Assembly (NCBI RefSeq): GCF_000003815.2
Contig: NW_023365820.1
Location: 522,776 to 586,775 of the forward strand
Length of the DNA stretch: 64,000 nt
Reading direction: 5' to 3'
From: Branchiostoma floridae
Lineage: Eukaryota > Chordata > Leptocardii > Amphioxiformes > Branchiostomatidae
The position numbers and the translations under genes are program-made. The notes below the pieces were generated by a model. It was not told the DNA's origin and made no database searches. It was given only the letters and a program-made list of their open reading frames with translations. Positions 7,701 to 64,000 of this stretch are shown here, piece after piece (within the stretch, counting starts at the first letter, position 1; each line of letters begins with the position of its first letter).

Positions 7701-10700
7701 GCGTGTGGGAACCACTGATAGAGCCTGTCATGGAGAAAAATGGGGCATACAGGCCGTGGGATATCTGTTTCAAGGTCTGGGAAAGCTTTATTTGTCTTCT
7801 TGTTTGGAAACCAAATCACCTATAACAACAATTTGAAAGTATTGTTTTGCGCTTGACTTTTTTATGTTAAAATGAGGTAAATACATTTAGTTTGTAGCTG
7901 TCAGTTGTTGAAAATGGTACATACAGGCCATGGAATATCTGTTTCAAGGTCTGGGAATGCATTTTTTTATTCTTCCTTTACAAATGTATCTTCATCATAT
8001 GGCAAATACAAGTTTAGCAAAAACTGAATTTGCATGATTTTGTATGCGAGTAAAAAGCCTGAGTCAGCTTACAGATGTGCCCTGTGTGGCAGAGACTGTC
8101 ATTGTTGTATAGGACTGTTTAGCTATATAGTCAAAGCTATAGTGCTAATATCAATAAGAATTTTACGATGGCCAATATTGACCAAAGGAGGCCACATGAA
8201 ACTTTCATTGAATGAATGAAGACCTATATTGCACATTTTTGCCCCACTGGGCTAAGTACAGGTCACACGGTAAGAATCACATATATGTAACAATGGAAAC
8301 AACCATACACATCTATATTTTTTTATGCAGATGTGCGTCTAATCTATTCTATGACATTCGACTTCCTCTCGCTTCTTGGTAATTGCATAAATGTAGCTAG
8401 CTGTATGGTTGGTTAGAGTTGGTTTATCAAAAGCTGTCAGGAATATAATTTCTTCAAGTAGATGCGATCTTTATTCTGTTTTCTAGATGTTGAATGCCCC
8501 AAGTAGGCATCTGTGCCCGACAATGTACGACTGTGAAGACTTTGGAAACATGAAGCCTGTTGACACGGTCGTGAGGACGGCCATGTACAGAGACGACAGT
8601 GACGAGTCTGAGACGAGTCCTGATGACACTGACAGCTTTGGAGACCGTGCAAGTTTGCTGGCAAGACGGCAGGGAAGTTTTCACAGAGGTGAGGTAGACT
8701 GTTTCATAATGTAACTTTGGAGAGGATGCAAGCCTAGGACAGATAACCTAAATTCTAAGGCTTTCAACAAGGATTGCAAGATCATTATGATAAATTAAAA
8801 AAAAAATCAAATCTGTTTTAAGCAGCTCCACCTTCTTTCCCCCAACAACAACAACAGTCTACATGTACATGTGTATGTCATTGAATGTTAGATGATATTA
8901 TTCAGGTAACAAGAAATGTTAAAGTTTCTCAAACAACTGGATACTCTTTGTAACAATCACAAATTTTACACAGCATTCACTATCCTTCAAGTCGGTGACT
9001 ATCATTTGTTAGTGGCAAATAATAGCAGATGCTTTCTGAAACATGATGGTTAAACACGATGGTTACGTAACAGTTACTCTTACATCACTGACGATGTTAA
9101 GCCATGGTCCACTTTTGATTGCACATGAAAAGAGCAATGATCCTGTTAAAAACTGAATGTATCATCTGTCTTCCCTGACATGACCATTGGAAGAATCTTC
9201 AATGAACTAAAACTTGATGGAAATTAATTTTTTCTCTCTTTCTTTTTCCCCTTATGATTTTGTTCCGGTTGTTAAACGAATCACTCCACAGATCAAGTTG
9301 ACAGCGGGAGGGGAGTGGCCAAACCTGTCAAACACGTTACCATGGAGACTGGCCCCGCCCACAAGCCAGATGCAGACAGAGGGGAAGACGATGAAGAGGA
9401 GGGATTCTGGGATACGATAGAAAACGCGCTGCTGTTCTCCAGCAGCTCCGAGTCTGAGGGCGAAGAGGATGATGGGAAGGCACTTTTACCAAAGTGAGCT
9501 TTTGGGTATTAATAGTCTAAGTTGCATTCTTAAAATGTTGTTTGTTAATTAATCAAATCACCAATACATTTAAAATAATACATGCTTTTGAGTTGCATAT
9601 TGCTGTTCCTTAATTAATCAAGTCAATAGATTTACCAGGACGTCTTCACTCTCTACATTGTAAGCCAATGTGCTTGGAGAAGAGAAGCCCAATGTACACT
9701 GTGTGTATTTTGTTGCATAATCTAAAAGTTTTGGATATCATCAAGTTTTGTTTCAGTTTTCTTTAGTCCATACCATAAATGTTGAGATTTCACAATGGTT
9801 TGATATTCTAAGTTGTGAACTTAAAAAATATCATTCATATTTAATAACTCTCTATGATAAGACAAATTCTTGTTCAAATTGACTCATTCATCGTTTTGTT
9901 GACTGTACGTATGATTTCAGATTTGCCCCGCCAGTTTCTGACTCTGACTCTGGAGAGGAGGCAGACAATGAGTCAGTAACGAGCAAATCCATTGACGAAG
10001 GTAAGATCACATACAATGTACATCTGTACCTAGAATTTTCTACCAGTATTTGTACCTGTACCTGATGACAGAGGTTTACAGTTAAGTTACACATCCCTAC
10101 TACTGTGAACCCATACATTTTATGACCCACCCCCACAGTTGATGCCCCCATACGAGATGAGGAAGAGGAAAAGATGGCGACGTACCTCGTGCTGGACTCT
10201 GCTGACCTCCTGCAGATCACACTCACTCCTGAAGCTATTGGTGCCATCAAGGACATTGCAGAGGTACATGGAACTCAGGAGTGTGTGAGACCTGTCCAGT
10301 ATTTTACATTCGTGAGAGATCTACATGCTATATTGAGGTCCTCATATTTTTGTTACCTACAAAAGGTAAAGAAAATTATGACCTTCTACACGTATGACAG
10401 ATCTTAGACTTTATAATAGATCCTCCAGCGCTATAGTGTATTGGTCAGCAAATAGTATTCCCACAGAGTTTTTGTACCTGAACAAGATGAGCCAAAAAGC
10501 AGTAACTCAAGCTACTAAATATGATTTTGGAAATGGAAAGACATTTCAACAACATCCGTTGTTTTTTGTCTTTGACGCTGGAGAAATCTTGTTGGAGAGA
10601 GCTTATATATATATAATCCTATCTGTGAATTGATATGCAAAAGAGGTGTGTTGTAGGTGATGGAAAATGGTGGATTAGGATCGGAGCTGTTAGCACTGAG

Positions 10701-19700: not shown

Positions 19701-22700
19701 GGGGACGATGTCCACGGTCGTAAAAGCCACACACTGTTTGTTTTGCTATTGTTATGATTGTTGACAATGTGTGTCGGTGCCCTTTTGCGTACAATAATCT
19801 CATTAAAACCCGTTTTTAAAGATCTCAGTTCAGTCTCTCTAACTCCTTGAATAGTGTTTTCGCGACAATGGGAATTGGCTGACGGAAAAAAAATGTCGAG
19901 CTGGCTAGAGCCCTGGAATGAATAAATCTAAATAAGGACTAGAAATGGACCAAAAGCAGTTCTGTAAATTTTTAAAGCTGTGTCCTCACAAAAATTCTGA
20001 CATGAATGAACTTTATTGCTCAACATTTGCACAAGGTACAATGTATGGCAATTAATAACAACTACTAGCTGATAACATTCACTTGTTCCTTTGGCTCATG
20101 TTTCTTTTGTAACAGTTAATTACATCAAATAATAGTATAGACTATTTGGTTTCAAAATTCTTCTTGCACCAGATGGGTCATAGGATTCTCTGTTTTGATA
20201 GCCCTAAGCTTGGACCACACAACTTTGCAATCTCTACAGTAGGTGGGCTAGTCCACCGGAAGTACATGTACATGTAACGCTAGTTCACCTTTATCCGCGG
20301 GGTAACCTATATCCGTTGCTTTCAAAATCAGGGTATTTAGGGCTATCATGTTGACGAAATGTGAGTTCAAACTGCTATACTTTGAAAATATTACAATTTG
20401 AAACAACCATCCGTCGACTTGATATTCCTTAATGCGCTGTTTTGAAAAACAACGGATATAGGTTACCCCACGGATAAAGGTGAACTAACGTTATGTTCAA
20501 CTACCATTCTACCAGTCTCATGAGAAAAATATTGCACAATGCTAACTTGAGCTCTGTACTCCTTTGAAAATTTTGTTCCAGGTTGTCATGGAAACCACAG
20601 ATGTGAAGGGAGAGAAGAAACAGATGGCGCTGGGAGTGCACACCACTGTTGGGGGCAGCCGGGATGTCTTCCTGTATGCACCGTACTGGCTGGTCAACAA
20701 AACAGCTCTGCCTGTGGAGTTCAGGGTAAGGAGGTCAAAGTTCATGTGTTAAAAAACTATAGGGTCATACAATGTAGGTCAGAGGTCAGCAAAACAGCTC
20801 TACCTGTGGAGTTCAGGGTGAGGAGGTCATAGGTCATGTGTAAAAAACTATAGGGTCATACAATGTAGTTCAGAGTTCAGCAAAACAGCTCTACCTGTGG
20901 AGTTCAGAGTGAGGAGGTCATAGGTCATGTGTAAAAAACTATAGGGTCATACAATGTAGTTCAGTGTTCAGCAAAACAGCTCTACCTGTGGAGTTCAGGG
21001 TGAGGAGGTCATAGTTTTAAAAAAATGTGTAAAAAGACTAAAGAGTTGTACAATGTAGTTCAGAGTTCAGCAGTACAGTGCTCTGTGTGGACTTCATGAT
21101 CAGAAGGTCATAGTTCATGTCTAAAAAGACTTTAAGGTCATATGATGTAGTTCAGAGTTCAGCAGTACAGTGCTCTGTGTGGACTTCAGGATCATCAGAA
21201 GGTCATAGTTCATGTCGAAGAAAACTTTAAGGTCATATGATGTAGTTCAGAGTTCAGCAGTACCTTGTTCACTGTGGAGTTCAGAGTAAGGTCATTGTTC
21301 ATCGGGAGGAAAGTCCTAGGTCATAGTTCAAAAGAACATTAGTCCAAGGGTCACAGTTTAGGGGTAGGATTAATTCCTAGGGTTATAGTTCAGTGCAAGA
21401 AAAGTCTCAGATCATAGTTCAAAGGTAGAATAGTCCTATTGTTATAGTGCAGAGGTAAAGCCTTTCAGCCAAATTTCAGAGGTTTTAACATGACTTGCGT
21501 ACTTCTGACTTTTAAAGTCTTTGGATATCTCGGTAGACGTGAAGAAATCTGATCAGAATTCCTCCTTGTATACTATATCATGTTATATTATCATTAGTAC
21601 AAATTCTGAAGTTTCCCATGGGCAACTAGCTGTCTCAGACTGATACTAATCACTTGTTGTCTTACTTACAGGGTGCAGGGAGCAGCACTGTTTATCAGGG
21701 CAACACCACCAACGATCCTGCTCTATTCAGTTTCCACAGGCACAGGAGAAAGAAGGTGAGCACAGGATTTGAAAACACCAGATTCATTTTAGCAGGCAGA
21801 AAATTCATGAGAAAATCATGCATATTCATATTGGTTGAACCTGTCTAAAGCAATTCTTAGAATAAATCAAGTGAAACAATACCAAAGTCAGTGAAGCCTT
21901 ACTTTCAATTACTATTTTCTTGAAGCATTAGACTTTATGGCAGTTATTTTGCTTCCTTGAACAATTATCTATGAGCTTCATATTGATTTAAGTGGCAAAG
22001 GGAAAAGTATTTCATTCTCTTCAGAATATATTTAAGATTTGTTTCCAATAGGTTTGTTATAGGTTCATCCAAAAACTTTGTAACAATTGTGTAACTGCAG
22101 TATGCCAATACAAGTTTGACAACAACAACAAAATTCTAAATTTCATATTTTTTTAAAACTTAACCAACTCTTATAGACGAAAAACATTTGCTTGACAAAA
22201 ACAAAAGAGAAACTACATTTAAAGAGTTTTTGAAATAAATCTTAGTGTTACAGTTAGAATCTTGCTCTCTTTATTAGTTTAAATCAATTGTGTTTCCCTT
22301 TTGTCCCCCTAGTCATGGACAATGCTTCTCTGCCACTCGGCCAGAAAGAGAGAAACCATAACGTGGTAGAACATCCCAGAGACTTTCACTATACACTATA
22401 ACTACTGTCTCTCTCTGAGTTGTTACTTGTTTGATGTCTTGTGTGATGTTTCAGTTTTGACTGGTTTGATTGTCATAACACATTTATCAATGTGCTGTTA
22501 TGTTAAGTGAATTTTTGCTTTTTTGATATCTTGTATGTCTCTAAGGTTTGACTTGTTTGATGCGCTAGCACTATAACATGATCCGGTCTTACTCCTTTGT
22601 GTTCTTGCTTGTTTGATACCTCATCTGCCTCTCAGTTTTTACATGTTTGATGCAATAACTCTTTAATATCTCAAGTGTCTTTCTCTGAGTTTTCCCTTGT

Positions 22701-25700
22701 TTGATACGGTGTGTTTCCCTTAGTTTTTACTTGTTTGATGCGGTATAACAGTAATGCTCTGTCTTGCTATATGTTTTTGTTTGATACCTCGTGTGCGTTC
22801 ACAGTTTTGATTTGTTGGACCAGCTGCTTTAGGACAATAATGTTCTTTCTCTGAGCTATTCTGTGTTACCTTGTTTGTGTGCCTTGTGTATTTGTCTATC
22901 AGCTTTGGCTTTTTTATCCTCTGTGTGTATTTATGTTTGTGTGTGTGTGAGTGTGTGCGTGTGTGTGTGTGTGCGGGCATGTACGTTCGTGTGTTTTTGT
23001 GTGTGTGTGGGGGGGGGGGTTGTGTTTCACATGGCTCTGGGTTCCAAAAACCTTCAAATTTATTCAAGGACCTGTTAAAACTGCTCCACCATAATTCCAT
23101 GTTGTGACACACATAATCGATTTAATATTAAAATGCAAAACTTTCAACCCTTGATAAACTGCTTCTCACCACCCTTATCTTGCCTTCACCCTCCAAACCT
23201 CCTATCAAAAGATGGGAAGTTTAGCATGTGCCTGTGTAGAGAAGGCAGAAAAGAGAATACGTCCGGTAAGAATAGTCACAGTAAAAGCTTTAATAATGCT
23301 GCATGTAAGAATAACACCATTTATGTGGCAATGCTGGAGCTTTGCTGTATAATTATTATGGTGCAAGGTGATTGGAAACAAGGTCATTCTCACTGGTATT
23401 CTTTCTTTTTTAATTTCCATAGTCAACATCTTTTGATAGATGCAAATCTAAGGCTGGGAAAAGGTTTCTTCCAGATGGTGGCAGTAGTTTGGAAGAGCAA
23501 GCCTAAAAGAACATGCCTAAAATGCAGTAATCAACAGTTCATCAACATGATAGCTACTAATATTCAATATTTATTGAATACTAGCTAGGGTGGCCTCGGC
23601 CATTAAAAGGTTTCCTTATCTTCACATTATTTTAAATTTTTATAAAATTTGTGCCCTCTTTTTTAGGTGATGGTGTCTTTTCATTTTTGGCAATTTTGGA
23701 CTAAAGCACAATATTTCAATGCTTCTTAAATTTTTTCCCTTTTTTTAAACTTCATTTAATTTTTTAAGATGCGGGAAAATTGGGCAAAAATGTATCATTT
23801 TGAGAATCTTTTAAAAAGAACAATATATTGAATGACGTATTTGTGAAAGTTATTAAATTGAGTCACAAATATATTTTTACCTAGAAGTCATGGTGAAAAG
23901 TAAGGAAAAATGTTTTACTTAAACACATTGATAGCCTTGTCTATTGGGTTGTAGGCAAAGATGCGAATGTTCCGGTCAAAGTGGTCATCTGCCATACCAC
24001 TGGACACAGTCGGACATGCAGGAGTGGTCACCTGTCGGGACAAGGACAGTGGGAAAGTCTACCAGGTAAATAGAGATCACCCTGTATATAAGCACACAAC
24101 ATCAAACATCATTTGTGTTTGGGATTGATAATGTAACATATGGACATAGTGTTCTTAGACATATTGATTTTTCCTAGTGCAGTCTAAACTACATGACATA
24201 TTTGTACTTGTCGCAGATTGACATTTCTTCACATAACCACAATTCCCTGTCCTAACAACCCCGATGTACTTTGGGGGTCAAATGCCAGCCCTGTGAGTAA
24301 CAGGCTAGAAATGTGCCTCACAGTGTGTAACAGGCTAGCGGATGTGCCACACTGTGAGTAACAGGCTAAGATGTGCCACACAGGGATGTCGATCTCGGAG
24401 ATTCGAGAACAAACCTTGAAAAGAAAAGGGGGAGTAGTGTAACAGCGGTGTTTAAGTACCGCCTACCGTCCTTGCCCAACAGCTTTGAGCTTTTGTGGCG
24501 ACAGCGATAGCGGTCATGATTTGTAATCTGCCGCCATTGTAATCATGTCGGCATGTTTGTATCTTTCTGTTCTTACTCGCCCCTCTCAATTTCTACAATG
24601 CCATTCGGACGTGCGAGCGATAGGCTAAATGAATTACATTCCTGGCATTCCTGGATAGGCGTTGTGTCTTTGAAAAAGTCACTTTCAATGACTTTCCTCA
24701 CTCCACTAATGTTTGAAAACTAGTACGTGACTTCTGTTGGCAACTGGTGAAATGCAGTGGAAAAAATGAGAGGGATGGGCTCCACCTTCCAATACCATGC
24801 TCTTAGACACAGTGGATAACCCAGTGCGCTACATGTATGGCAAAGAAAAAGCAGACAGCCTTTTACCTTTGGGGGGAAAATGCCATGTACACTGAGACTC
24901 TTACATAACCATTATTGTTTTATCGACACCAACGTTTCAGCGTCTGTCACCTTCTTCAGGGAAATTCTCACTGGTTCACATTGTACTGCAGAACAGGTGT
25001 TGCTGCTCACAGTTCAAATACAGTCACAAACATAAAAGCATAATGTACAGACTGCTTTATGTGAATATGTCATTGAATAAAACAATAGTTATGGTTACAG
25101 TACCAATCTGATGAAACTTTTCAGGGATGCTCTGCGCCAATATCTATATCTATTTTGGCACAAATGCAGGTGTGGTTGGAGATCCACCTGTCCAAGCTGA
25201 AGCTGACCAAGATGGTGACCCTGCTGCCCTTCTTCATGGTGGTCAACAAGACCACTGCAGAGGTCACCTTCACTGAGGAAGGTCAGGAGGATGAGTACTG
25301 GACTGTCATCCAGCCAGAAGAGGTAACTGATGATTAACAGAAGAACAAATGAATGAATTAACAAATGAATTAGTGCAATAATCAATGAATGTATAGGGAG
25401 GGAGGGAGAAAGGAAAGAAATTATTGACTGTTAGTGAAGATGGTGTCATAGTTTTTTTTTTAGTTTTGCACCAAAAATTGACACAGAAAAATGACAAAAT
25501 GAGAAATGATAAAGAGACTACTGACACTGTCACTGACGAAAGATATATATACATATTGGATGTTATCTTAAACGTGTGCCCATTTCGAAAATCATATCCA
25601 GTTGCTTGACACAATTTGTAATTGCTATTTGGCATGTCTTATTACCTGGATGTCTAACCTTCATCAATGACAAGGAGATTAGAAGTGTTGCAGGCACTGT

Positions 25701-28700
25701 TTTGTGGTTATGGTTTCTGATCTAAGTGAATAAAAGCCTTTGCGTACATTTTTCTTCAGGTTTTACCATTGTGGCCTCACTCCGGAGTTCTGAACCTCGT
25801 GGTGAGACAGCCAGGGGTGGAGAACAAGGGTGCAGAGATCCCGGTCCTGTCACAGTACTTCCCCATCCACAAGTCTCACACCACAGTTCTCAGGATGTGG
25901 AACGGCACGGCGCTCACCGTGAACGTGGCTGGAGGGATGGAGAGCCCCACAACGATAACGTTCACCCCGTTCCAGCCGGGGGATGCGCCAGTCCGAGTTG
26001 TGAACTGTTGTCACAATGCCTTTATCAGGTTCCACCAAAAGTGAGTAGTACAGTTTTGAATAGTTTCCATGGCATAGATTTAGACACAAGTACCTGAATA
26101 AAGTAATTGAATAGGATGACTTGACTGTCCAATCCCTTTACTTTTGAAGCTACATTATATCAAATTACCGTTAGAAAACAGTCAACAACGGCTTACCCAT
26201 ATCAGTAAAATCAAATTATAAACTTCCACTACTACTTTACTTCTTCTGCTACTACTACTTCTACTGCTTCTACCTATATTACTACTGTCTACTACTTCTA
26301 CTACACTTTTACTACAAGTACCTACAGTAACTAAACCTGGGTACCATTTCTCAGTTGTAACTGCTGGCTAAATCTTTTTGCTTGCTAGTGAAAAGATCCA
26401 GTCATGCAGTGGTTACTACAGAGGATGGTACCCAGGCTACAACTCTTTACTTGTATGATTTTTATTTATTCATTTATTGATCTTGTGGGGTAGGCAAGAA
26501 GAGCGTTTAAGGTTTCAATGTCGATGTCAATGTAGCTTGGTGTACCTAATGCAACTCATGTGTCAAGTTGTGACAGTAAGTGGAGCATTTCATCTTTTTC
26601 TGAACAGTTAAAATGATTCACACATTCAAGCATCAACTGATATTTTGATGTGTAATTTGTGGCATGCCCATAGGGGTATGAGTCAAGTCATATATTGTCC
26701 TGACACCGAACCGGTCAGTGCTGTACACATGGGATGATCATAGAATGATTGAACAGGGCATCATCTGATGTTGTAATGTGTTATCTGTGAGTTTCTTACA
26801 GGGGTATGAGTCAAGTCATATATTGTCCTGACACCAAACCAGTCAGTGCTGTACACATGGGATGATCATAGAATGATTGAACAGGGCATCATCTGATGTT
26901 GTAATGTGTTAGTTATGACTTTCTTTACAGGGGTATGAGTCAAGTCATTGTCCTGACACCCAACCAGTCTGTACTGTGCACATGGGATGATCATAATTAA
27001 AAATGATTGAACAGGGCATCATCTGATGTTGTAATGTGTTAGTTATGACTTTCTTTACAGGGGTATGAGTCAAGTCATTGTCCTGACACCGAACCAGTCA
27101 GTGCTGTACACCTGGGATAATCATATTAAAATGATTGAACAGGGCATCATCTGATGTTGTAATGTGTTATTTGTGACTTTCTTTACAGGGGTATGAGTCA
27201 AGTCATTGTCCTGACACCGAACCAGTCAGTGCTATACACCTGGGATGATCATAAAATGATTGAACAGGGCATCATCTGATGTTGTAATGTGTTATTTGTG
27301 ACTTTCTTTACAGGGGTATGAGTCAAGTCATTGTCCTGACACCTAACCAATCTGTGTTGTTCACCTGGGATGATCATAAAATGATTGAACAGAGCATCAT
27401 CGGATGTTGTTATGTGTTATTTGTGACTTTCTTTACAGGGGTATGAGTCAAGTCATTGTCCTGACACCGAACCAGTCTGTGTTGTTCACCTGGGATGATC
27501 ATAAAATGATTGAACAGGGCATCATCTGATGTTGTAATGTGTTATTTGTGACTTTCTTTACAGGGGTATGAGTCAAGTCATTGTCCTGACACCGAACCAG
27601 TCAGTGCTGTATACCTGAGATGATCATAAAATGATTGAACAGGGCATCATCTGATGTTGTAATGTGTTATTTGTGACTTTCTTTACAGGGGTATGAGTCA
27701 AGTCATTGTCCTGACACCGAACCAGTCAGTGCTGTATACCTGAGATGATCATAAAATGATTGAACAGGGCATCATCGGATGTTGTTATGTGTTATTTGTG
27801 ACTTTCTTTACAGGGGTATGAGTCAAGTCATTGTCCTGACACCCAACCAGTCTGTACTGTACACATGGGATGATCATAAAATGATTGAACAGGGCATCAT
27901 CTGATGTTGTAATGTGTTATTTGTGACTTTCTTTACAGGGGTATGAGTCAAGTTATTGTCCTGACACCGAACCAGTCAGTGTTGTACACATGGGATGATC
28001 ATAAAGTGATTGAACAGAGCATCATCTGATGTTGTTATGTGTTATTTGTGACTTTCTTTACAGGGGTATGAGTCAAGTCATTGTCCTGACACCGAACCAG
28101 TCAGTGTTGTACACATGGGATGATCATAAAGTGATTGAACAGAGCATCATCTGATGTTGTTATGTGTTATTTGTGACTTTCTTTACAGGGGTATGAGTCA
28201 AGTCATTGTCCTGACACCCAACCAGTCAGTGTTATACACCTGGGATGATCCTACTGAGGAGAGGACTCTATGGTGGAACCTCTACAAGAGAGACAAACCT
28301 TCATTTCCAGCCAGAATAAACCAGGTATCACAATATATGTTTGAATGTTAAAATCTAATCTAGACTAATGTACAGTTTCCTTTCGCACATTGCAATCTTT
28401 TAAACAACTTAGCTGTCAAACTCGATGTTATTTGTTGCATGTCATTTTGTATAAACTTTCCTTCGTCAGTGACACTGAAGTGATCTGCAAGAAACAGGTC
28501 TTTTATACTCTAACTATGAATGAAGACAATTTCAGATGTCCAATAGGAAAGGTTGTAAGACAATTCAGACTGAAGACAATTTGGATTCCAAAGAAAACAA
28601 AGCTAAGCCAAAGTCAAGCTGAAGACAATTTGGATTTCAAAGGATATCAAGGCTAAGACACAGTTAATGCAAATGAGTCAATTAGCTCCTGTTGTTTTAG

Positions 28701-31700
28701 TTACAGGAGCTAAAAGTTTTGTTGGCGGGGGTGGGGGGGTGGTTCTGAATTGTCTTACAACCTTTCCTATTGGACATCTGAAATTGTCTTCATTCATAGT
28801 TAGAGTATAAAACACCTGTTTCTTGCAGATCACTTCAGTGTCACTGACGAAGGAAAGTGGATTCTTTCCGAAACGTCTGACCGTTTCAAAACCATATCCA
28901 GTTGCTTGAGTAACTATTTTTGGCGTATCTTATTACCTGGATGTCTAACCTACATCGACGTAAGCTAGTGTTAAAAGTAATTCCTTATATAGGAGAGGAT
29001 ATGTGCAAAACTGTTTTAACTTTAATTGCATATTCATCTTAAAGCACAATGTTTAGTTTTAGTCCAAGAAGCTCACTTCTTCAGTTTTAAATATCTTCTG
29101 TCCCTGTCATTGTTTGAGAGCCCATGTTGTTAATTTTTGTTGTAGAATCTGTAATTTTATTTAGCTTAACAAAATACAATTTCATTATCTTCAATTTTTT
29201 TTGGTCAGCTGGGATGAAACTTTTGTCTACTCCAATAAGATAATTTCCATCTCAAGAGGGAGGGGGGCGAGTCCTGGAGTCAACCCTAATAGGCACTGAG
29301 ATAAAGTTGTCAATCCTATAGATAGGCTCTGATACCATCCCTTTAAGTATGTTTTAACATCTTGTTTGATGTTAATTCATTCCAGGACAATGCTGGTATA
29401 GAGACGGTCATCTTGCCCGGTACAGAAACTGCCCATGGCAGTAAGAAGAACGGGCCTGGCCGAAGTAAACAGAAGAGAACCAACATCCACTGGGTGTCAT
29501 ACCTGGACGGGCTACAGAGGGTGCTGTTCTTCACAGGTGCATTTTGGAATAGCTGTGTATCGGTGGGGTTCAAGCGCCAACAAACTGACCATGCTATCGG
29601 TTCTGCCTCTTTTGGCATAGTGGTTAGCGGTGTTGGGCGTGTGAGCTGGTGGCCCTCTTAGTCATCATCATATCGTTCCGTGCCAGTACTGCAGCCAGGC
29701 CACGGCCTTCTCGTTAGCTTCTAGTAGGTCCTGGTTGGAGATGTTGGGGCCTAATACACAGTCCTGTGTTGGGGCCTAATACACACTCAGTCTCTTAGTG
29801 CTACATATAGAATATAGAATCAATGGTGTTTTCCGTATCACCCAAGGTACAGTTTGTTTGTGTGTACATGTACAAGACCAATAGCAGGGTTTGGCCATGT
29901 TGTATTTTATATATATATTGTCATACCCACCTGAGAAAATACATTTCAATTGAAAATGCACCTGAAAATTGGGAGTCCTCAAGCAAATAATTGTAACAGC
30001 AGACATTCCAACGTCAGAGTCAGGTATTTGTATTTTTGACCGTGTTACACTCTGTGCGCATGGTGTATGTTCAAATTAGTTGATGGAAGCCCCCTGTGAT
30101 AACAGTTTGAAGCTCGTGTGATACAGAAAGTTACTATCAGGTCAGGAACTCCCATATTGAACGTTATCACTGCCCAGGTATAACATAAATATCAATATCA
30201 TTTAAGTCTTCAAGCACCTCTTGTATACCTGTGAGGTATGATACCTGCAATATTGGCATTTATATGCAAGCAAGGCAAACAAAGAGTGAGTTAGTGATCA
30301 AGAATTTTAACTAAATGGATTGATAAGTGAGTGAGTGTAGTAGAGAAATAGGAAAATGAATCACAGCTGTGTTGCCTTTATTGTTAACAGAGGATGCAAG
30401 CCTTGCCCAGGACGTACGGGAGGCCTCTGGAGAAAAGACATCGCTGGAAGCCTTCCTGTCACTAGAGGGGCTGGGGGTGTCACTTGTAAGCAGCCTCTAC
30501 ACAGAGATTGCTTACTTGAGGTAAAGTTTTCTCCTTATGTGATCTTGTAGAGAATTTACGCCTCTCTTTCTGTACACAGAATGATGCACTTGCGAAGATT
30601 GCCATCAGTTCTAAAGTTTGAGGTGACCTCAGGTTTAAGACACTTGACCCAAGAGTGACCTCAGCAACAGGTCAGAGGTGCAAGGTAGATGGTATCAGCC
30701 CCCGTCTCGGTTGAGGGATAGTAGATGTTTTGTAATGACTATGGCTACTCAGAAAGTCATCCTGCTTGTTGTGTTATATTCTTATTTTATGTAAAAGCAT
30801 GGAATCGTAGTCCAGTATTATGTCAAGTATTCCAAATTTATTATACAAAGTCATGGGATGCTCTTATGATTTGTCCAGACGATTACAAATGTATTGAATA
30901 CACTATAAGAGTAAGAGAGTAACAGTAGCAATAGAGTAACAGTAACAAGTTGTCAGAATAAGAAAGTGCTGTCCCTGGTGCTGAAAGTTGCACTGCTGTG
31001 TAATTCCTTGGTTCGGAAATTATTTTATTGTATAACAGCTAATACTGAATACACAATGCACACTACAAATTAATATGATATGTGCATGTTACAACTATGC
31101 AAAGGTTTATGAAGGGGTCCAGTTTCTTTGAAATACTATCAATATTTAGATGCCTATACATGTACTCTTTTAACTAGATCCCATCCAAATGGGGTTATGT
31201 GATATAATTGATGCAATGACAATAAGTACCTGACTTAAGTTAAGGACATCCTTTCTGATAGAATATAAAACCAGAGGCCCTGTGTTTTAGGAGAGCAATA
31301 CCTCTATACACACTAAAGCTCTCACCATATCTAAAAAAACTGCATGGTTCCATTGCAAAGAGATTGGTTCAAACCTAACAGTCTGGTCTTATTATATATG
31401 CAGCTTATACCTGTTGTACGAAACCAGTAAAACCATGGTAAACAAAGAACAAACAAATAAATCATGACATTGACATATATTTTGTTTTCTAACTCCACAG
31501 TATTACCAGCACCCCACCACTCTGGGAAGTCAACTCCAAAGGCGACAGTTGGAAGATGTTGAAACTTGAGGTCGCCACGTTCTTGGAAGACCAGTTTCGG
31601 CACGGGCATCACGAGGCGGTCATGTCGGACAAAGTCAAAGCTGACTTCAAGACCATGCGGATGGTCAGACCTACTGCCGGAGACCTGCGTAGAACGTATC

Positions 31701-34700: not shown

Positions 34701-37700
34701 CTTGTTGTTTATTGTTGGTAACGTTACCTGTAGGCTATCCAGCAGTCTTATGTGCTCTTACTTGGTCTGGACGTGATTGGAAATCCGTATGGACTCGTCA
34801 CCAAGATTGGGAAAGGCCTTGGAGATCTTTTCTACGAACCATATCAGGTTTGTCACTTCCTTGCTGCTTGTAAGAATGATAATGTGTTGCATGTCAACAC
34901 TGCTGAACATCCATGTGCAAATGTTGTCAGTTACAATGGTGCTGCCCCTACTTAAACATTCTATTCTTGTGCAGAATGCTGTCTATAGTAACTGTTTGCT
35001 GTTCATAGTACTTAGCGTGCTGTTGTAATTCAATCCTCAAAGGCAAAGGTGCTGTCTCTAGTACTGTGCATGCACTTGTTATGCAAAGGATGGCATCACC
35101 AGTGCCAAAGGTGCTGTCCCTATAGCTGAACATTCTATCCCCTTTGCCAAAAGTGCTGTCCTTAGTAATAAACATGCTACTGTTATGCAAAGTTTGGATC
35201 TGCTGTTTCTGGTGCCAAACATGCTATTCTCGTGCAAAGGCTACGGTCTACAGTGCCTCTCCAGTGCCATTGGTGCTGTCCCAAGTGCTGAACATGTTAT
35301 TCTTATGCAGATAATGCTATCCCTATTGTCAAAGGTGCTGTCCCTAGTGCTGAAAATGTTATTGTCATGCAAAGGATACTGTCTACAGTGCCATTGGTTC
35401 TGTCCCTGATGTTATTCTTACGCAAACGATCTGTCCCTATTGCCAAAGGTGCTGTCCCTAGTACTGAAATTGCAAAGGATATTGTCTACAGTGCTATAGG
35501 GTGCTGAACACACTATCTGCATGTTAAGGATGCTATGCCAAGTGTGCTTTGATTTCTATGTGGTGTCAATTCTTAACAGCTGAAGCAATCTTTGATTTTT
35601 CTCCTCCAGGGTGCTATTGAGGGACCAGAGCAATTTGCAGAGGGTGTGGCCAGAGGGGTGCAAAGCCTGCTGGGACATGCTGTCGGGGGTACAGCAGGAG
35701 CGCTGGCCGGTATCACAGGTGAAAGGACAGCTTTATGAGAACCATTGCATATGCCTATCAAAAATCATGTTGTCAGTAGAATTTTTGTTTGTAGACTTTG
35801 TGCTGGCCAGATTTCGATTTCTGCTCAACCTCAAAGATGCATGATGTTCTTGTGATATTTAAGTCTAGGGTTCAATATTTGCCATGCCCTGCAAATTTTC
35901 CCCTTGGGAAAGGCACCTTACAAGACGTTCCCTAACAGTGGAGTGTCAATGATGTGCGAAAAACACACATGGATTTTGTGTGCCAATGTCCACGTGTATG
36001 TGTGAACATTTGCCACAAATCATTTTTTCATAAGTAATATTGTAATGGAATGTTCCTTGACACTTAGGGAGTGTAGGGAAGGCATTTTCCCTACTGTCCA
36101 TGGATGAAGACTACAGCACTAGGAGAAGACAGCGCATGCAGCAGCAGCCTACTGACATGCCATCAAGTCTGTTACTGGCAGGGCAGAGCTTCATCATGGG
36201 CATCGTGATGGGCATATCAGGTTAGCAATCCAAAAAGCATGTTTTTGGTTTCCAATTTTTACAGTGGAATTAGATGCCAGACAGTATATTGTCAGAGAGT
36301 TATTAGTTTGAGGATGACATGTGAATGTGTGATTTTATTTGCTATTTACCACTTTTTCCACACACGTGCACACACATAGTCTGCTGCACTACCAAGGTCG
36401 GCCACCAGGAAGCCCAACATTAAGGAGGACCGTTTGGTCAACAACACCTACCCATGTACTGAATGTGATTGCATTCCATCAATATGTTCTTAAGATATTC
36501 TACCATATCCCTTCTAAAGGCCCTGCCAAATACCTTTGTTACATAACCTAGTCAGGATGGCCATGCAGTCTAAGGTGTTGCATTCAGGTCACAGACTGCT
36601 TCTGCAGGTGTGGTTTTGCATCCCACTTTAAAAAAAAGTGTTTTTACTTTCTTCAACAAATTTCGTGTAATGTATTTTGATAGACCAGTTCAGGACTTGA
36701 ATGTTTATAATAATAATAACTGCTCTCTTTTCATGTGGTTAAATTGTTTCACATTAGGCTTTTTCTCATAAATTCTTAGCGGGCAGCTTTGTTTTCCAAG
36801 CTTTCTTATACTGTATGATTGTATTATGGAACTGCTAAACTTTCTTTCCAACACGAATTAATATAGGGACTTACCCTAAATTTTCGGTCAATTCCGTCGA
36901 CCTTGTTCACAGAATGACCCTATCTCCAGCTGTGACGTCAGGAACACGCCACTTTTGCAGGAGGGGGTCATAAGTATCAGAGAGTCTGTGCCGCCCCCCG
37001 TCTCTGTTGAGTGTGGGCCGGTGGGCTCTAATGTACACTGCCTCCTTCACTCCTCGCGCGAAGAAATCCTGTTCAGAGTCTACGATTTGGACTTTGTCCA
37101 ACGAAATGGAATTAGAGCCCACCGGCCCACACTCAACAGAGACGGGGGGCAGCACAGACTCTCTGATACTTATGACCCCCTCCTGCAAAAGTGGCGTGTT
37201 CCTGACGTCACAGCTGGAGATAGGGTCATTCTGTGAACAAGGTCGACGGAGTTGACCGAAAATTTAGGGTAAGTCCCTATATTAATTCGTGTTGGAAAGG
37301 AAGTTTAGCAGTTCCATAATGTATTCTACCAAACACAGATGAACTTTCATGCTGTATGATTGTAATGTACCTGTTTTATTCCATTTTTTCAGGTGTGGTG
37401 CTGCAGCCAGTGAAGGGTGCCCAACAGGAAGGGGTGGAGGGGTTCTTCAAGGGGATCGGGAAGGGACTCCTGGGGCTCTTCTCTCGCCCTGTAGCCGGGG
37501 TGTTTGACATGGTCAGCTGGTTTTGTTTGTTTGAACCTTTATTCATTCATGAAAAGCTCAAATCAGCCAGCAAGCTGCTTTTCATTGAGGTCATGATAGG
37601 GGTAAGGGTCAGATAAAAAAACAACAGATATACAGGTTTCATCAGTGAAATTAACTTTAAGTTAATTTTCATACAATCATTTTTGCAAAATGTACTGATG

Positions 37701-44977: not shown

Positions 44978-47567
<2,590 letters not shown>

Positions 47568-53342: not shown

Positions 53343-53496
53343 CCATGACCAGACGCGCATCGTATGAGCTCCGCCTGTAAATAACTCTCAGAGCGGTTGC
53401 TTGTGTCGCAGAGTTTTCTATACAGTTTATTTCGACTTCTGTTCATAGTTCCTTTATACTTTAAACTTTTAAGACATCCAGCAGTGCTCTACCACC

Positions 53497-55950
53497 ATGG
53501 TTCGAGAGAAAAACGCAGATTTCGAGTCGCCGGAGAAGACAAAGAGATATCGCACTAGATCGGGCAAGACCAAGCCGTGGAATACACCGGCGAAGGAAAT
53601 CCAGGACTTTGAGCAGGTTACAGAAGATCACACAGACTCAAGCAAGACAAAGGTATGTAACCTCAAAATCCGTACAACCCCAGACCGCGTTTCGTTGTGG
53701 ATTGATGCTAGCAGAGTTTGCTTCGATCGTTCGCTCGCGGAAGACACAGGATACAAGTTCACTTGGAAGAAGGGTAACGTTAACCATCCCCAGCTTTCGG
53801 TTACTGATCCCGCTTGGTCAGGAGAGAACGCCAAAGTCGTCACCATTCACTACTACCATACGGGTACAATTCTAATCCATGGGAAAGGTACACCTTGGTT
53901 CGCTAAAGACGTCTTTCCGCAAATCAAGAAAGAAGTCGATAGTATTGCCGACGTCGCTTTGGGGCAAGATGGCGGACTTGAGAATGAAGGACTTGAAGGC
54001 GGGAAAGTTGAGACAAAAGACGACGACACTAGGACAATAGAGTCTACCTCTGAGTGTGGCGCACAAGATGGCGGACTTATGCATAAGGAACTTGAGGCTG
54101 ACGTAGATAAAACAAAAGACGACGACGCTAAGACAATGGAGACTACCTCCGAGTGTGAAGCGTCCGCCATGACAGCGCCTGACAGTGACTTAGAACAGAC
54201 AACAAACTTGGAGCCTGTAACTGTTGATTTGACCAAGGATCTGGCCGTAGAGAAAGACATCCTAGCAGAAAACACAACTCCAAAATCGCTCAGGTCTCCT
54301 TCCATCCGCAAAGTACTGGGAGGTCTTGAGAACATTTTCCTTACTCCATTCACAAAAGTACGGGAGTCTGCAGGTAAAAACAAGATGGGGAGTAACCCAC
54401 AACTCTCAAACCCACGATCGCGCCAAGCTCTAAAGATGGACCTCCCAAAAGAGCCAGAAACAAGTGCAAAGCTCCCCAGTACTGACTACGAAAATATGTA
54501 CACAACGCTGGTGGACGATATAAACGAGCTGAAGACCCTGGTTTTCAGCAACAAGGTAACTATGGACAAACAAGGAAAACTAATCGCTAGTCTACAAGCC
54601 AACCTGCAGAACAGGAAAGTCGTGATTGACAAGCAATCTCGACAAATTGAGAACCTTGGCTCTGAACTTCAACGTCAACGTGAAATCACGAAGAACCTGA
54701 CTGACACACTAGCTTCTCAGAAAGCCGACCATGACGCTTTGCAAGCTCAAGTTCTCATCCTGACGAACCGTGCTCAAACATCCAACACTCAGACAAGACC
54801 AGTAGATAACAAAGCTCAGAAGGATGACTCCAGAATGACGAACAAAGCTCAACCATCCGACATCCAAACAACACTAGTAGAGAACAAAGCTCAGAAGGAT
54901 GAGTCCAGAATAAATCGTTTGTACTCTGAAATCGTTACTGGAGGCCGAGCACAAAACCCAATCACCGATGCAGCCCCGAACACCAAGTCATCGGCTCCCG
55001 CCCCCGGGCCCGCCCCCGCTCAAACTGACGGAAACACAACAGCGTCAACTCCAACCGAAAACGATCAAGGTGTAACGACACAAGTAAGAATCTTTGCGGA
55101 TTCCCTGTGGAATAATGTCGATCCCGAGAAAATATACAAACACAAAAGAGCAAGCATCTCCAAAACCACTACCCTACCAAGAGCCGCCGAAAGGATTATC
55201 GCGTCCCCAGATCCCAACACCGAGCTTGTCATCATCCATGTCGCATCTAATGATTTGGACAATACTAAAAACAGACCAGACAGCGTTGCCACCTGTGTAG
55301 AGCAAACACACAAAGTTATCGAGTCTACTAGAGAGTGTTTTCCTAACGCAAAGATTGGGATGTCGCAGGTCCTACCGCGAGGAACGAATATGAACTCCAA
55401 GCTCAATAGGAACATAGCTTCATACAATGACGCCATTGAAAGGTCCTGTCTGACGGATAACGACCTCATATATATCCGACATAGACTCTTGTCAGAAGAT
55501 CGATCGCTATACAAGCCTGACGGGATCCATATCAAACCCGACACAGGCGTCAGGCTTTTGGTAGCGGACGTCAAACGTACACTTCGGCACCAACGGGAAG
55601 CTCATGCTGTAAATCGGACAGACAGACAGGACAGAAACCCGACATCACAACACAGGAACCCAGGGAGAAACGGTGCATCAGTGTCGTACCGCACACAATC
55701 CGACCGACACCAGCCATTGGGACCCCGGCAGGAACCTCCAAGAAAGCCCGTGCAGCCTGACAGACGACCTTCGCCAGGGCCCCTGCGGATGCCTCAGAGG
55801 AACCCGCCACTGCTGTTTCCCTGGAACCAGGTACCCCCACCACCTCCACAGTGGAACCACAAGACTGGACCGTCGTTTGCTGAGACTGGGGACAAGCGTC
55901 AAACTGTGGAGACACTTATGAACATGTTGGCAGACTTCCTGAGACACTAA
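53497..55950 (+). CDS. LINE ORF1 protein with coiled coil and SGNH-esterase-like domain (817 aa)
   Basis: ORF1 proteins of CR1/L2-type LINEs bind element RNA, and an esterase domain is known in several of them. A basic N-terminus leads to a compact domain (about residues 50-150, LKIRTTPDRVSLWIDASRV). Then comes an acidic tandem duplication with two copies of about 35 residues (KDDDTRTIESTSEC and KDDDAKTMETTSEC), and a coiled coil at about 335-425. The SGNH-like domain spans about 529-700, with block I ADS (534-536), block III SND (584-586) and block V DGIH (675-678), so Ser536, Asn585, Asp675 and His678 are candidate active residues. The Gly normal in GDS and GxND is replaced. The last 100 residues are Pro/Arg/Gln rich. 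There is no internal stop, so it is intact. Confidence 0.9.
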   Translation: MVREKNADFESPEKTKRYRTRSGKTKPWNTPAKEIQDFEQVTEDHTDSSKTKVCNLKIRTTPDRVSLWIDASRVCFDRSLAEDTGYKFTWKKGNVNHPQLSVTDPAWSGENAKVVTIHYYHTGTILIHGKGTPWFAKDVFPQIKKEVDSIADVALGQDGGLENEGLEGGKVETKDDDTRTIESTSECGAQDGGLMHKELEADVDKTKDDDAKTMETTSECEASAMTAPDSDLEQTTNLEPVTVDLTKDLAVEKDILAENTTPKSLRSPSIRKVLGGLENIFLTPFTKVRESAGKNKMGSNPQLSNPRSRQALKMDLPKEPETSAKLPSTDYENMYTTLVDDINELKTLVFSNKVTMDKQGKLIASLQANLQNRKVVIDKQSRQIENLGSELQRQREITKNLTDTLASQKADHDALQAQVLILTNRAQTSNTQTRPVDNKAQKDDSRMTNKAQPSDIQTTLVENKAQKDESRINRLYSEIVTGGRAQNPITDAAPNTKSSAPAPGPAPAQTDGNTTASTPTENDQGVTTQVRIFADSLWNNVDPEKIYKHKRASISKTTTLPRAAERIIASPDPNTELVIIHVASNDLDNTKNRPDSVATCVEQTHKVIESTRECFPNAKIGMSQVLPRGTNMNSKLNRNIASYNDAIERSCLTDNDLIYIRHRLLSEDRSLYKPDGIHIKPDTGVRLLVADVKRTLRHQREAHAVNRTDRQDRNPTSQHRNPGRNGASVSYRTQSDRHQPLGPRQEPPRKPVQPDRRPSPGPLRMPQRNPPLLFPWNQVPPPPPQWNHKTGPSFAETGDKRQTVETLMNMLADFLRH

Positions 55951-56208
55951 ACTGAAGACATGCCGGTTCGCTAGAAGGATAACGACCAGTTTTATCCAAG
56001 TGACCACCCAGGTGACAAAATTACCTTATAATTACACATACAAATACTTCTGTACAATCTACCATGAAAGGGGAAACCCGCATGTATTATGTAATGTAAG
56101 TTTTAAGTACATATTTACGTTAACTTGTATTGATTAACTCTGCGCACAAAGTAGCTAAGCTCTCATTGTTAGAATATTTGTTATTATCGTCCAATTGTCA
56201 AACTCAAT

Positions 56209-59200
56209 ATGTCAGCGCAAAAGGTAGCCCTGAAGTTTTGTTCATGGAATATTCAGGGTGGGCTTAAGCGGAAAAGCCAGGACGACGATTTTGTTAGCTG
56301 TTTAGAAGATTATGATTTCGTGTGTATGCAAGAAACTTGGCTTAAGCCCAAGGAAAACTTTAGATTAGATTCTTTCAGTTATTTTAGGAGCGATAGGAAT
56401 GTAGTGAAAAGGAGCTCAGGCGGGGTAATGATAATGTTCCGAAACCATCTTGCAAAAGGCCTGACAAAACTTCCAACAAAACATCCTGATATCTTATGGT
56501 GTAGATTAGATAAAACCTTTTTTGGTCTAGAACGGGATCTGTTTGTAGGATGCCTATACTTTTCCCCCGAAAATTCATCACCTATTTCTACAAGCAGTAA
56601 CTTGCCCTTTGAAACGATACAAGATGATATTTCCAAATTCTCTAATCAAGGGAACATAATGTTATTAGGTGACCTTAACGCAAGAACAGCATCTCTACAG
56701 GAGACTACAATTCAAGATGACTGCCTAAATCACGATTTTATAGATTTCAAAGATGACCTACGGTATAGATCAAGCTCCGACAAAGGTGTAAACAAATACG
56801 GCAAGCACTTAATTGAGCTCTGTTCATCTGCTGATCTAACCATTTTAAACGGTAGAGTCGCAGGAGACCTGTCCGGAAAGCTTACCTGCCATAAATATAA
56901 CGGTTCTAGTTTAGTGGACTATTGTGTTGTTAGCTCGAAATTCTTTCCAAAAGTTAGATACTTCAAAGTTGACGATCCCTCCGTATTCTCTGACCACTGT
57001 TTAATAACATGCTCAATCTCTACGAATTATTCACCCTATATAAAACAAACCAAACCTTTTTCGCATCCTTTACCGACTAAATATGTTTGGGACGACAATT
57101 CTAAAGACAAATTTACAGAGGCATTACAAGCTCCCTCAACTGTAAGAGATTTACAGAAATTCATGGATAAATCCTTCCCTACTGTAGAAGGCGCCGTGAA
57201 AGAATTCGAAGACATTATCATACATGTTGCCGACAAGTCCTTACGGAAGATTGTCTACAAAAAGAAAAAGAAAAGGAAAAACAAAAACAAACCATGGTTC
57301 AACCAGTCATGTGCTGCTCTCAAACGGAAAGTCAATCGTTTAGCTACAGAATTTTCTAAATGTCCCTGGAAACTTGATCTTCGCCATGCTTATTTTAACA
57401 ACCTTAAAATTTACAAGAAAAAGATTAAAGCAGAAAGACGGCTCTTCAAAGAAAGGCAATGGAACAATCTTTATAAACTCAGTAAATCAGACCCACAAAA
57501 ATTCTGGAGAGAAATGAAAATTCAAAACCAGGATGGAAATGATAAACAAGATGAAAATAATAACATAAGCCCTGAAGAGTGGAAAACTCACTTCAAAAAT
57601 CTGAACGATCTTGTAAAAATTAATGAAGCCGACACAGATTTCCATCAACATATCGGTCAGAAAGAAACAGACCTGCTTCAGACAACGGGAAGTGATAACG
57701 AAGTTGACATAGGAAATAAGGAGCATACCAAAACTATTATCAATACCCTTGCAAATAAAACGGGAAATCCCTTGGACTATGACATTTTAGAAGACGAAAT
57801 CATAGCCGGACTACATAAACTAAAGGGCCGTAAAGCATGTGGCACAGACTCCATCACTAATGAAATGCTAAAATGTGGCACAAACCAACTTGTCATACCA
57901 CTGAAGAAACTGTTCAATCTCGCCATCCAGTCCGGTACATTTCCCAATCAATGGAGTCAAAACATTCTCGTCCCCATACACAAAAGCGGCAATACATCCA
58001 ACCCGTCAAACTATAGAGGGATCGCAATTTCTAGCTGCGTTGGGAAACTGTTCACTCTCATATTAAGTAACCGTCTGCAGCACTTTCTGGAAGATAACAA
58101 TATATTGACTCCTTCTCAATCCGGATTTAGACAAAACTTCCGGACAAGTGACAACATCTTCGTGCTTAAAACTATCATCGATAAACAGTTGTCTGAACCT
58201 GGTGGAAAGTTATACGCATGTTTTGTTGATTTCAAGAAAGCATTCGACTCTGTTTGGAGAGATGGCTTGTACTACAAACTGTTATCATCAGGCATAGGTG
58301 GACAATTCTTCAAAATCATACAATCCATGTATTCCAACATAAAATACTGTGTTAAAACTCCTGGTGGCCTGTCAGACTACTTTAAATCAACGTGCGGCGT
58401 ACGCCAAGGGTGTAATCTAAGCCCCCTTTTATTTAACCTTTTTATAAATGACATCCCTAGCGAGTTGTCTTCATCATTATGTGATCCTGTCACTCTCGAT
58501 AATACTCCAATTAACAGTCTCCTATGGGCAGATGACCTAGTCCTCTTCTCAAAGTCAGAAAGTGGTCTCCAAGAGTGCCTAAAGAGACTAGACAGATTCT
58601 GCTCACTCTGGAAGCTAGCAATCAATAGAGACAAAACTAAAGTTATGATATTTTCAAAAACTGGACGAACAGGTTACAACAAAAACTCAAATTTCCAATC
58701 ACAAGGACAGTCCTTAAACATTACAAACTTTTATACATATCTGGGGGTAGATATAACACCCTCCGGATCATTTCAGCGTGCAACAAAACAACTGAGAATA
58801 AAAGCCCTCCGGGCTTCTTTCAAACTCAGATCCCTCCTTCTGTCAAACTACAACCCATCCATTCCACTAGCACTTGATTTATTTAATAGTTGAGTCAAAC
58901 CAATTCTACTTTATTGCAGCGAGATACTGGGAACAACAGTTCAATCACGGGATCTCATCCTTAATGGAATAGCGGAATGTCCAAATGAAAACATAAGACA
59001 AATATTATCCAACATTATATCTCCGATACTAGGATCGGATGTTAATATCCGTAAAGCTACTCGTGTCGGAAAAAAAATCTGACCCACCATCTAACCGTCC
59101 GGTTTTAATTCGACTCAGCAAGTACAATGATAAGTTACAGATGATATATCATTCCAATACATTAGCTAAACAAAACATTACGGTAACTCAACCTCCAATT

Positions 59201-60373: not shown

Positions 60374-60970
60374 CATCATCATCATCATCATCATCATAGG
60401 TACCCCCAGATGACCCCGCGTGGGGGCAAAGTAGGGGGGGGGGGTTGAGGTCCCGGGTAAGGGCGGGCAGCCCTCATGCCTGGCACGGAAGCACTCAACG
60501 GTGGGAGCACTAACTACCGTGCCAGGCAGGGAATGCCACTCTGGAATTGTTCAGGGAAAGTATGAGAATTTGTAGGTGTCAGTGCGGGCGAAAATTGGTG
60601 AAAAATGTTCCACCGTCAAAGACAACCCTCTGGGTTCTCTCCGCAAGGAAGGCCCTAAGCCAAGACTGAAGAAGGCCAGAAATGCCATAGTGCTCGAGTT
60701 TGCTCAGCAGACGTTCGTGAGGCACGGTATCGTGTGCGTTGCTAAAGTCAACCACCGCGGCATCGACCTGTTTGTTCTGGTCCATATTTTTGGCCAGGTC
60801 TTGGAGGGTAAGCACCAGCTGGTTCTCGCAGGACAGACCCTTTCTGAAGCCATGTTGCGTTAGGGACAGAATGCCATGAGTGTCTAGATGTTTCATCATG
60901 TGGCTGTGCACGATGTGTTCGAGCACTTTACCACAGACCGATGTCAGAGACACCGGCCTATAGTTTAATA
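60374..60970 (-). mobile_element. 5'-truncated LINE relic of a second family, minus strand
   Basis: On the minus strand, about 60965 to 60590 encodes RT text: NYRPVSLTSVCGKVLEHIV, LTQHGFRKGLSCENQL, then DFSNAHDTVPHERLL where motif A should have KAFD. The Asp is kept, the flanks are altered. Below it lies a 3' UTR with tggcacgg and a ccc-rich run, and a (ATG)n tail at 60374-60398 on this strand. It differs from the element at 53322-60257 in both RT wording and tail repeat. It sits between two copies of the duplicated flank. Confidence 0.8.
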
Positions 60971-60984
60971 CATAAGAGACCGCA

Positions 60985-61310
60985 CAAATTGTTTTCTTCC
61001 TATCATGCCGACAAGTTAGTCCCAGACCATCTCTACAATATGTTTCCGTTTCACACCCCATAAGACACACAAGAACTTAACTTAGTTTCGGGTCCTCCGA
61101 CAGGGCTTTCACACGAGCACCGATCTCCTGGACGTCACCGTACAGCTAGCCGTGGAGATGGCATCGGATCGGACAACCTCTCACCGGGATAAGTCCAAAC
61201 ATGAACATTGCAGCTGCAGTTGATCCGTCTTGATGGCGCCAATAAGATCCTGGAAGCAACAAAGCGAAATTATTGCAATTAGGTCGAGACAGTCTTCTTG
61301 CTTTGTTGGA
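60985..61310. repeat. Duplicated flank, copy 2 with empty LINE site
   Basis: This block corresponds to 53222-53321 joined to 60258-60372, without the LINE. It also carries about 120 bp (61095-61215) that copy 1 lacks. On the minus strand both copies share a splice-acceptor-like gctttgttgcttccag followed by GATCTTATTGG, so they may include an exon of an unidentified gene. No continuous protein could be built. Confidence 0.8.
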
Positions 61311-62880: not shown

Positions 62881-64000
62881 TTGCTATAGCTTAATTATAG
62901 TTCGTAAATCAGCCTCATTACGAAACACATTGGGTACCTACTGGCTGCAAATGCACCAGATAATAATTCAAAGAATAACAATGTGTTCAAAGCATGAAAG
63001 TCTTAGCAAAGAAAGCTATTGTAGCATTTTCTCATAAATTATGTAAATGAGACCCTAATTTACATGAATTACGTATGCATGTTCAACTTAACGTACATGT
63101 TGCTGCCAAATGTCGCAAGTGTGGAATTTTCGTCATTTAGCACTATAATAACAATTTCTCATTAATTATGCAAATTAGGTAACAGTTTGCATAATTGATG
63201 TCTATCGATATTTCTCTCTTTTCTAGTTACATTTGTCGTGTTTAAGTGATCTAGTATTATGAAATACTGTGGCTTCGGAAGAATGGAATTTTCGTCATTT
63301 AACATTGTAATAACAATTTCTCATTAATTATGTAAATTAGGTAACAATTTGCATAATTGATATCTATCGATATTTTTCTCTTTTCTAGTTACATTTGTCA
63401 TGTTTAAATGTTCTAGTATTATGAAATACTGTGGCTTAATAAACTGTGCTCATTAGTTATATTAATCATGCAAATTAGCCCCTGGTTTGCATTGATAGCC
63501 CTTATTCATGGAAGACATCTCCGAATTTATCTACATATCAAAAATCACAATGATCCGTCAACCCCTTCCCGAGTTATTCCCTTCCAAAAGGATGGTGCAA
63601 TTGCGCACGCAGGGACGAATTGCTGTGGAATTTCGGGAATATTTGCCAATCGGATATATGCCTAACAGTAAGCTTAATATTTCTCTCTTTTTGAGTTACA
63701 TATGGCATATTTTTGAGTAGTCTAACATGAAATGCAGTGTATTTGTAAACTGTCCTCATGAATTATGCAAATTAGCCCCTGATGTGCATGATTAGCATTT
63801 GATTATGTAAGGCAGCTCTGAAGCTATCTACATTCCAAATATCATGAAGATCCGTCAACCTATTCCCGAGTTATTCCCCTCTGAAGGGGTGATGCAACTA
63901 GGCGTGGAAAAATTCCTGACCTGCCTGCGGAATTTTGTGAATTCTTGTCAAACGGACGCACACTATACTAGTAGGCTAGCCCCTGAGGCGTCGCCAAAAA
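62880..64000 (+). repeat. AT-rich satellite-like tract with ATGCAAAT words
   Basis: 63122-63275 and 63285-63437 are tandem copies of about 163 bp. A second type, with gatccgtcaaccccttcccg and attatgcaaattagcccctg, occurs at about 63440-63660 and 63745-63960. The word cattaattatgcaaattag recurs at 63162, 63325, 63465 and 63758 with small changes. Confidence 0.85.

Follow-up and report, generated by a model that had tools for sequence, protein, structure and literature searches.

We analysed a 64,000-nt stretch of Branchiostoma floridae DNA (the window; GC 40% overall) and found, in a VPS13A/C-like gene, a minisatellite that crosses an intron/exon boundary and places twelve truncated copies of an exon start, with their acceptors, ahead of the true exon. 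The array looks like the same kind of structure as the mirages of amphioxus genes, and the tandem repeat matches them in several respects: it crosses the boundary and repeats the splice signal, and its unit comes from the gene's own boundary, with an exon part that codes for the same VPS13 segment as the true exon does and an intron tail that matches the left flank. The reading that we consider probable is a mirage expanded by unequal exchange whose decoys are passively skipped, probably through exon definition; the splicing outcome and the exchange mechanism are what we infer. The features of this region are given below; the exon numbers 28 and 29 are those of the initial annotation and serve as labels only.

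25760–26040, + strand: exon 28, upstream of the array, likely start after TTTTTCTTCAG, ending in TTCCACCAAAA before the GTGAGT donor
26041–28188, + strand: array-bearing intron, 2148 nt, donor at 26041, AG of the true acceptor ending at 28188
26608–28250, + strand: minisatellite array, 12.9 units of 125–130 bp, delimited by TRF and by aligning the unit tail to the left flank
26674–28063, + strand: decoy exon starts 1–11 and the acceptors between them, from comparison of the copies
28064–28188, + strand: decoy 12 and the true acceptor, with −45 to −1 the same in decoy 12 and the true copy
28189–28324, + strand: exon 29, the true exon, 136 nt, placed by VPS13 alignment, donor GTATCA at 28325
29386–29530, + strand: following exon, start set by AG and reading frame, end guessed, preceding intron about 1061 nt

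Exons 28 and 29 joined together (exon 28 from 25787) align across their junction to VPS13C (E 3.1e-7) and VPS13A (E 3.8e-7) in a comparison with chains of solved structures; Pfam returned nothing for these two exons alone. Exons at 18.6–20.7 kb matched VPS13_VAB over the Pfam cut-off (E 1.4e-15), a VPS13_M match (E 1.4e-8) fell under it, and the C-terminal pieces at 33.9–38.2 kb aligned to VPS13C (E 2.8e-77, 263.5 bits) and VPS13A (E 7.1e-74, 252.3 bits), with no Pfam match for the C-terminal string when joined with X spacers. The VPS13 sequence domains thus found are in order. The gene is likely VPS13A/C-like, judged by comparison with VPS13A and VPS13C. Its near-equal closeness to VPS13C and VPS13A in bits fits an unduplicated A/C gene and proves nothing.

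Several other features were observed in the window. The intron after exon 29 holds a 115-bp inverted repeat (28455–28858; arms 28455–28569 and 28744–28858, 99% identical), perhaps a foldback or MITE-type insertion. Downstream of the VPS13 gene there is a leucine-rich-repeat gene at 46404–47567 (LRR_8, E 2e-18), in which a membrane span seems likely by eye, followed by a likely non-LTR retrotransposon at 53473–58893 with two long open frames of 825 aa and 906 aa, the latter carrying endonuclease and reverse transcriptase domains, and then by a 322-aa frame that runs to 60001. A reverse transcriptase-like frame was recognised by eye on the − strand at 60579–61076, and a two-unit repeat of about 162 bp (92–93% identical) lies near the window end at 63113–63437. 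A search of the whole window against Rfam at gathering thresholds gave 0 structured-RNA matches.

TRF, run over the whole window, reported the array at 26630–28250 (period 125, 12.9 copies, 93% matches) with a score of 2629, the top of its 29 rows; our start of about 26608 is the point from which the unit's intron tail becomes recognisable in the left flank. Self-identity at a lag of 125 in the best 500 nt was 0.964 within the array vs at most 0.334 elsewhere in the window, indicating that the array is not due to chance. There are 13 copies of the exon start, GGGTATGAGTC, with their first exonic bases at 26674, 26802, 26931, 27061, 27189, 27314, 27439, 27564, 27689, 27814, 27939, 28064 and 28189, that is, at spacings of 128, 129, 130 and 128 nt and then eight times 125 nt. 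The array lies where the initial annotation had placed it, with 12 cut-short copies ahead of the true exon, and the period is, as claimed there, exact in the last nine copies. Each unit reads, 5' to 3', intron tail, acceptor and the initial 62 nt of exon; past GGATGATC every decoy unit returns to the intron tail, and the exon body and donor (28325) stand only behind the copy at 28189. The leftmost copy adjoins unique intron and the rightmost unique exon, the arrangement expected from a tandem duplication that crosses a boundary. Units 1 and 2 carry a 4-nt insertion, units 8 and 9 are identical across 125 nt, and the leftmost unit is the most diverged of the decoys. A mobile-element origin of the unit was considered and rejected, since no 16-mer of the unit at 27939 recurs in the rest of the window, both strands considered, and the exon part is VPS13 coding sequence.

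Most copies had been said to retain an intact acceptor, and this was borne out: TTCTTTACAG is kept in 10 of the 12 decoys, the exceptions being unit 2, where it reads TTTCTTACAG, and unit 1, where the corresponding region is ATGCCCATAG and has no pyrimidine tract. Eight of the 12 decoys (units 5–12) match the true site at every base between −27 and +15. On a simple weight matrix the score of the true acceptor was 5.7, that of decoys 2–12 between 4.4 and 5.7, and that of decoy 1 −0.2; the true acceptor's score is reached by 24 of the 3881 AGs in the window, nine of them inside the array. A yUnAy branch-point candidate stands at −34/−35 in 11 of the 13 units and is absent from units 7 and 10. 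In the same simple scoring the donor GTGAGT at 26041 reached 4.94, and the exon-29 donor GTATCA was weak (0.4, a score reached by 368 of 3869 GTs in the window) and was outscored by GTs within the array: one of 1.28 in all 13 copies, two nt past the acceptor in the context AG/GGGTATGA, one of 1.42 in units 11 and 12, and one of 2.31 in unit 1. The longest stretch without variation among units 3–13 spans 30 nt across the acceptor (permutation P 0.051); conservation of the acceptor block is borderline, and we claim no selection on the decoy acceptors.

The upstream exon ends in AA and the units start with G, and the phase was thus correctly described in the initial annotation, which had also predicted that a wrong choice would add about 28 codons and then TGA. 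A stop does lie behind all 12 decoys; the length was less uniform, the frame from AA plus copy staying open for 18–44 residues (21, 21, 23, 31, 30, 44, 30, 18, 18, 30, 30 and 30 in decoy order), and the third decoy ends in TAA. In units 8 and 9 the stop falls within the conserved part. Pseudo-exons of 67 nt are possible in units 11 and 12, as is a 40-nt cassette in unit 1, and each would bring a frameshift that ends in a stop.

Over the 62-nt exon part of units 3–13 we counted 14 variants, ten synonymous and four nonsynonymous (Y to F, Y to C, W to stop and D to N), leaving out units 1 and 2 with their insertion; when these two were added and the insertion omitted, the count was 11:5. With an expected synonymous share of 23–29%, P was 0.0002–0.001 depending on the transition weight, a binomial value that assumes independent variants and is a guide only. 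In the other two reading frames these variants gave 3:11 and 1:13, and third codon positions made up 9 of the 12 variable sites (P 0.004). Variants found beyond one unit or adjacent pair were all synonymous (6:0), and those confined to one unit or adjacent pair were 4:4, a contrast based on 14 variants that became 5:0 vs 5:4 without the true exon. All four combinations occurred at 18 of 55 informative site pairs, a pattern that can also arise by recurrent mutation. At all 12 variable sites the true exon's base is shared by one or more of the ten decoys 3–12, and none of these decoys equals the true exon, from which they differ at 2–6 positions over 62 nt.

That the array has recently grown or been homogenised, as the initial annotation proposed, is supported by the exact 125-nt spacing of units 5–13 and their identity from −27 to +15, which speak for concerted evolution and unit turnover. 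Since the differences are mostly synonymous and all six scattered variants are silent, the decoys seem to have been re-copied from, or to exchange with, the working exon. We propose that the array began as a tandem duplication of ~128 bp, comprising the intron end and the next exon's first 62 nt, and later expanded through unequal exchange. With unequal crossing-over or exchange, the terminal, selected exon would repeatedly template new decoys, and such re-copying would keep the decoy acceptors intact and the older, scattered differences silent; the dead copies would then gather local, unselected changes. Exchange may also run from the decoys back into the working exon. In its stronger form, which we regard as possible but doubtful, the intron would store exon starts that trade sequence with the working exon in both directions, by unequal crossing-over or conversion, with the decoys also rewriting the exon's first 62 nt; if so, an intronic minisatellite would set the pace of silent, and potentially of amino-acid, change in a conserved protein.

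How splicing would cope with thirteen acceptors may follow from position. Where the flanking introns exceed about 200–250 nt, the sites nearest across the exon pair (an exon-centric proximity rule), and under intron definition pairing involves the sites nearest across the intron (PMC9225289, from the part of that article available). The introns here, 2148 and about 1061 nt, exceed 200–250 nt, and the exon-centric rule would therefore pick the acceptor before 28189. The exon-29 donor would pair with this nearest acceptor, 136 nt away, in preference to the penultimate one at 261 nt and the other decoys at 386–1651 nt; the upstream copies, which have neither exon body nor donor, would remain intronic, and the decoys, 261–1651 nt from that donor, would leave with the intron. 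On this analysis the exon-centric rule would by itself, with no regulation, give the last acceptor the advantage over extended exons. Two points speak against passive skipping. Eight decoys have an acceptor equal to the true one, and use of the penultimate acceptor would still yield an acceptable exon of 261 nt. The exon-29 donor is outscored, on the simple matrix, by GTs inside the array, whose scores make a 67-nt pseudo-exon possible in unit 11 or 12. In addition, an argument that leads from mirages and the VPS13A/C position to an amphioxus source is partly circular, and the window's GC does not discriminate.

The alternative offered in the initial annotation, regulated non-productive splicing, makes the decoys poison acceptors that send some transcripts into nonsense-mediated decay and set the VPS13 level, with unit number as the dial. 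Plausible acceptors in 11 of the 12 decoys, the stop behind each of the 12, the possible 67-nt pseudo-exons of units 11 and 12 with a GT above the exon-29 donor and a stop reached, and the position of the longest invariant stretch over the acceptor (P 0.051) would all suit it. Poison sites, however, require no synonymous bias, yet one is present; the sites are not all kept (decoys 7 and 10 have no yUnAy candidate and unit 1 no pyrimidine tract); and amphioxus mirages are reported not to disturb the mRNA (PMC3087553, PMC3902484, in the portions available). Because published mirages are reported to leave splicing undisturbed and the exon-centric rule needs no regulation, we do not prefer this reading and judge it unlikely. 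A GT close behind the acceptor in all 13 copies (AG/GGGTATGA) might instead recall recursive, or ratchet, splicing that removes the intron stepwise. A ratchet site requires AG/GT; here, however, the junction is AG/GG in 13 of 13 copies and the intron is just 2.1 kb, and such a role is hardly credible.

The synonymous excess in the exon part would also be expected if the decoys were present or former protein-coding alternatives, themselves under selection. This we hold to be very improbable: units 8 and 9 have a stop in the conserved part, units 1 and 2 have the 4-nt insertion, a stop follows all 12 decoys, the 67-nt cassettes of units 11 and 12 and the 40-nt cassette of unit 1 shift the frame into a stop, and a selected terminal exon as source accounts for the same bias. 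It could further be argued that the assembly has inflated the copy number or merged two haplotypes, given that all 125 nt agree between units 8 and 9 and that two assemblies of one lancelet gene disagree on repeat number (PMC3902484, in the part available), but the other units are mutually different and the first four spacings are unlike the rest. We therefore regard the array as very likely real, with its exact number in doubt, and an artefact as quite improbable. Passive skipping of a mirage is the reading that we carry forward.

A second array of opposite polarity lies further upstream in the same gene:

20583–20725, + strand: exon with its end amplified downstream, presumed true donor AGG/GTAAGG at 20726
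20694–21291, + strand: second boundary array of exon end and donor, true copy and six more, spacing 91–99 nt

Taken alone, this exon gave weak matches (VPS13A, E 0.013; VPS13C, E 0.18); together with its two upstream exons it falls in the VPS13_VAB match (E 1.4e-15). The donor GT is present in copies 1–4 and 7 and gone from 5 and 6, the matrix scores being, true copy first, 5.04, 4.54, 1.39, 4.54, GT lost, GT lost and 1.89. Use of the donors at 20818, 20909, 21000 or 21286 would include a stop. This donor-side array is more diverged than the acceptor array, and in the two clear cases it is the presumed true site that adjoins the exon body. A further, older case may exist:

7737–7974, + strand: candidate for a third boundary duplication, exon end with GT at 7775 and a single copy with GT at 7949

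Its two parts, 7737–7801 and 7911–7974, are 86% identical over 65 bp, its donor is weak (0.24 on the simple matrix), and VPS13A similarity reaches the last exonic residue in a query that stopped just one residue beyond and so carries no information on the boundary; the assignment is tentative. The intronic repeats at 22413–22880, 24283–24381 and 34928–35495 showed no exon boundary by eye.

Thirteen in-phase acceptors and a donor-side array in one gene amount to a natural experiment on splice-site choice: under an intron-centric rule splicing should use the first good acceptor and, on the donor side, the last good donor, and under an exon-centric rule the sites that touch the exon. The synonymous bias suggests that boundary arrays keep a record of the adjoining coding sequence and may in turn influence it. 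Such arrays also endanger gene prediction.

A literature search for the VPS13 locus, covering titles and abstract starts and few subscription papers, gave no description of it among the matches listed. In the parts of the papers available, a lancelet gene-prediction study names a fragmented VPS13D and leaves boundary repeats unmentioned (PMC4967905), a huntingtin paper mentions only assembly repeats (PMC2206037), and a paper on amphioxus VCBP genes mentions introns that contain partial exons carrying splice sites, perhaps a related case (PMC2632668).

The comparisons that follow draw on the available portions of the cited papers. The closest known system is the mirage of the globin gene BflGb6, whose tandem units of 150–160 bp comprise an intron 3' end and the 5' part of the next exon, occur as 6 and 3 units in two haplotypes and undergo concerted evolution, and for which RT-PCR suggested that splicing is not interfered with (PMC3087553); mirages were there proposed as a source of new introns, with Adh3 and other loci cited. 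The VPS13 array is alike in its composition, its many intact splice signals and its concerted evolution, and its unit of 125–130 bp is of the same order. It differs in its host gene and in having 12 decoys vs 6 and 3 repeat units, and BflGb6 has polymorphism and RT-PCR data whereas the VPS13 array is known here from one haplotype's sequence. Lancelet PGBD5 resembles the VPS13 gene in having two arrays at splice sites, with repeats of 60 and 108 bp, but it is a different gene with fewer units, which number 2 or 7 (60 bp) and 3 or 6 (108 bp) depending on the assembly; Adh and TnC boundary repeats are cited beside it (PMC3902484). The Adh3 mirage likewise crosses an intron/exon boundary, gives no aberrant mRNA and shows somatic length instability (Canestro 2002, as cited in PMC3087553 and PMC3902484), but its units are short (10–72 bp as cited) compared with those of VPS13. 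The VPS13 array has more units than the mirage cases with stated numbers in PMC3087553 and PMC3902484, and what is new here is the mostly synonymous difference among decoys and its codon-position signature, which go unmentioned in the available parts of those two papers. In studies of competing sites (PMC9225289; Reed and Maniatis as cited there), sites of similar strength are chosen by exon or intron distance, as we propose for VPS13; those studies used pairs (PMC9225289), whereas the VPS13 gene offers 13 natural copies in a row.
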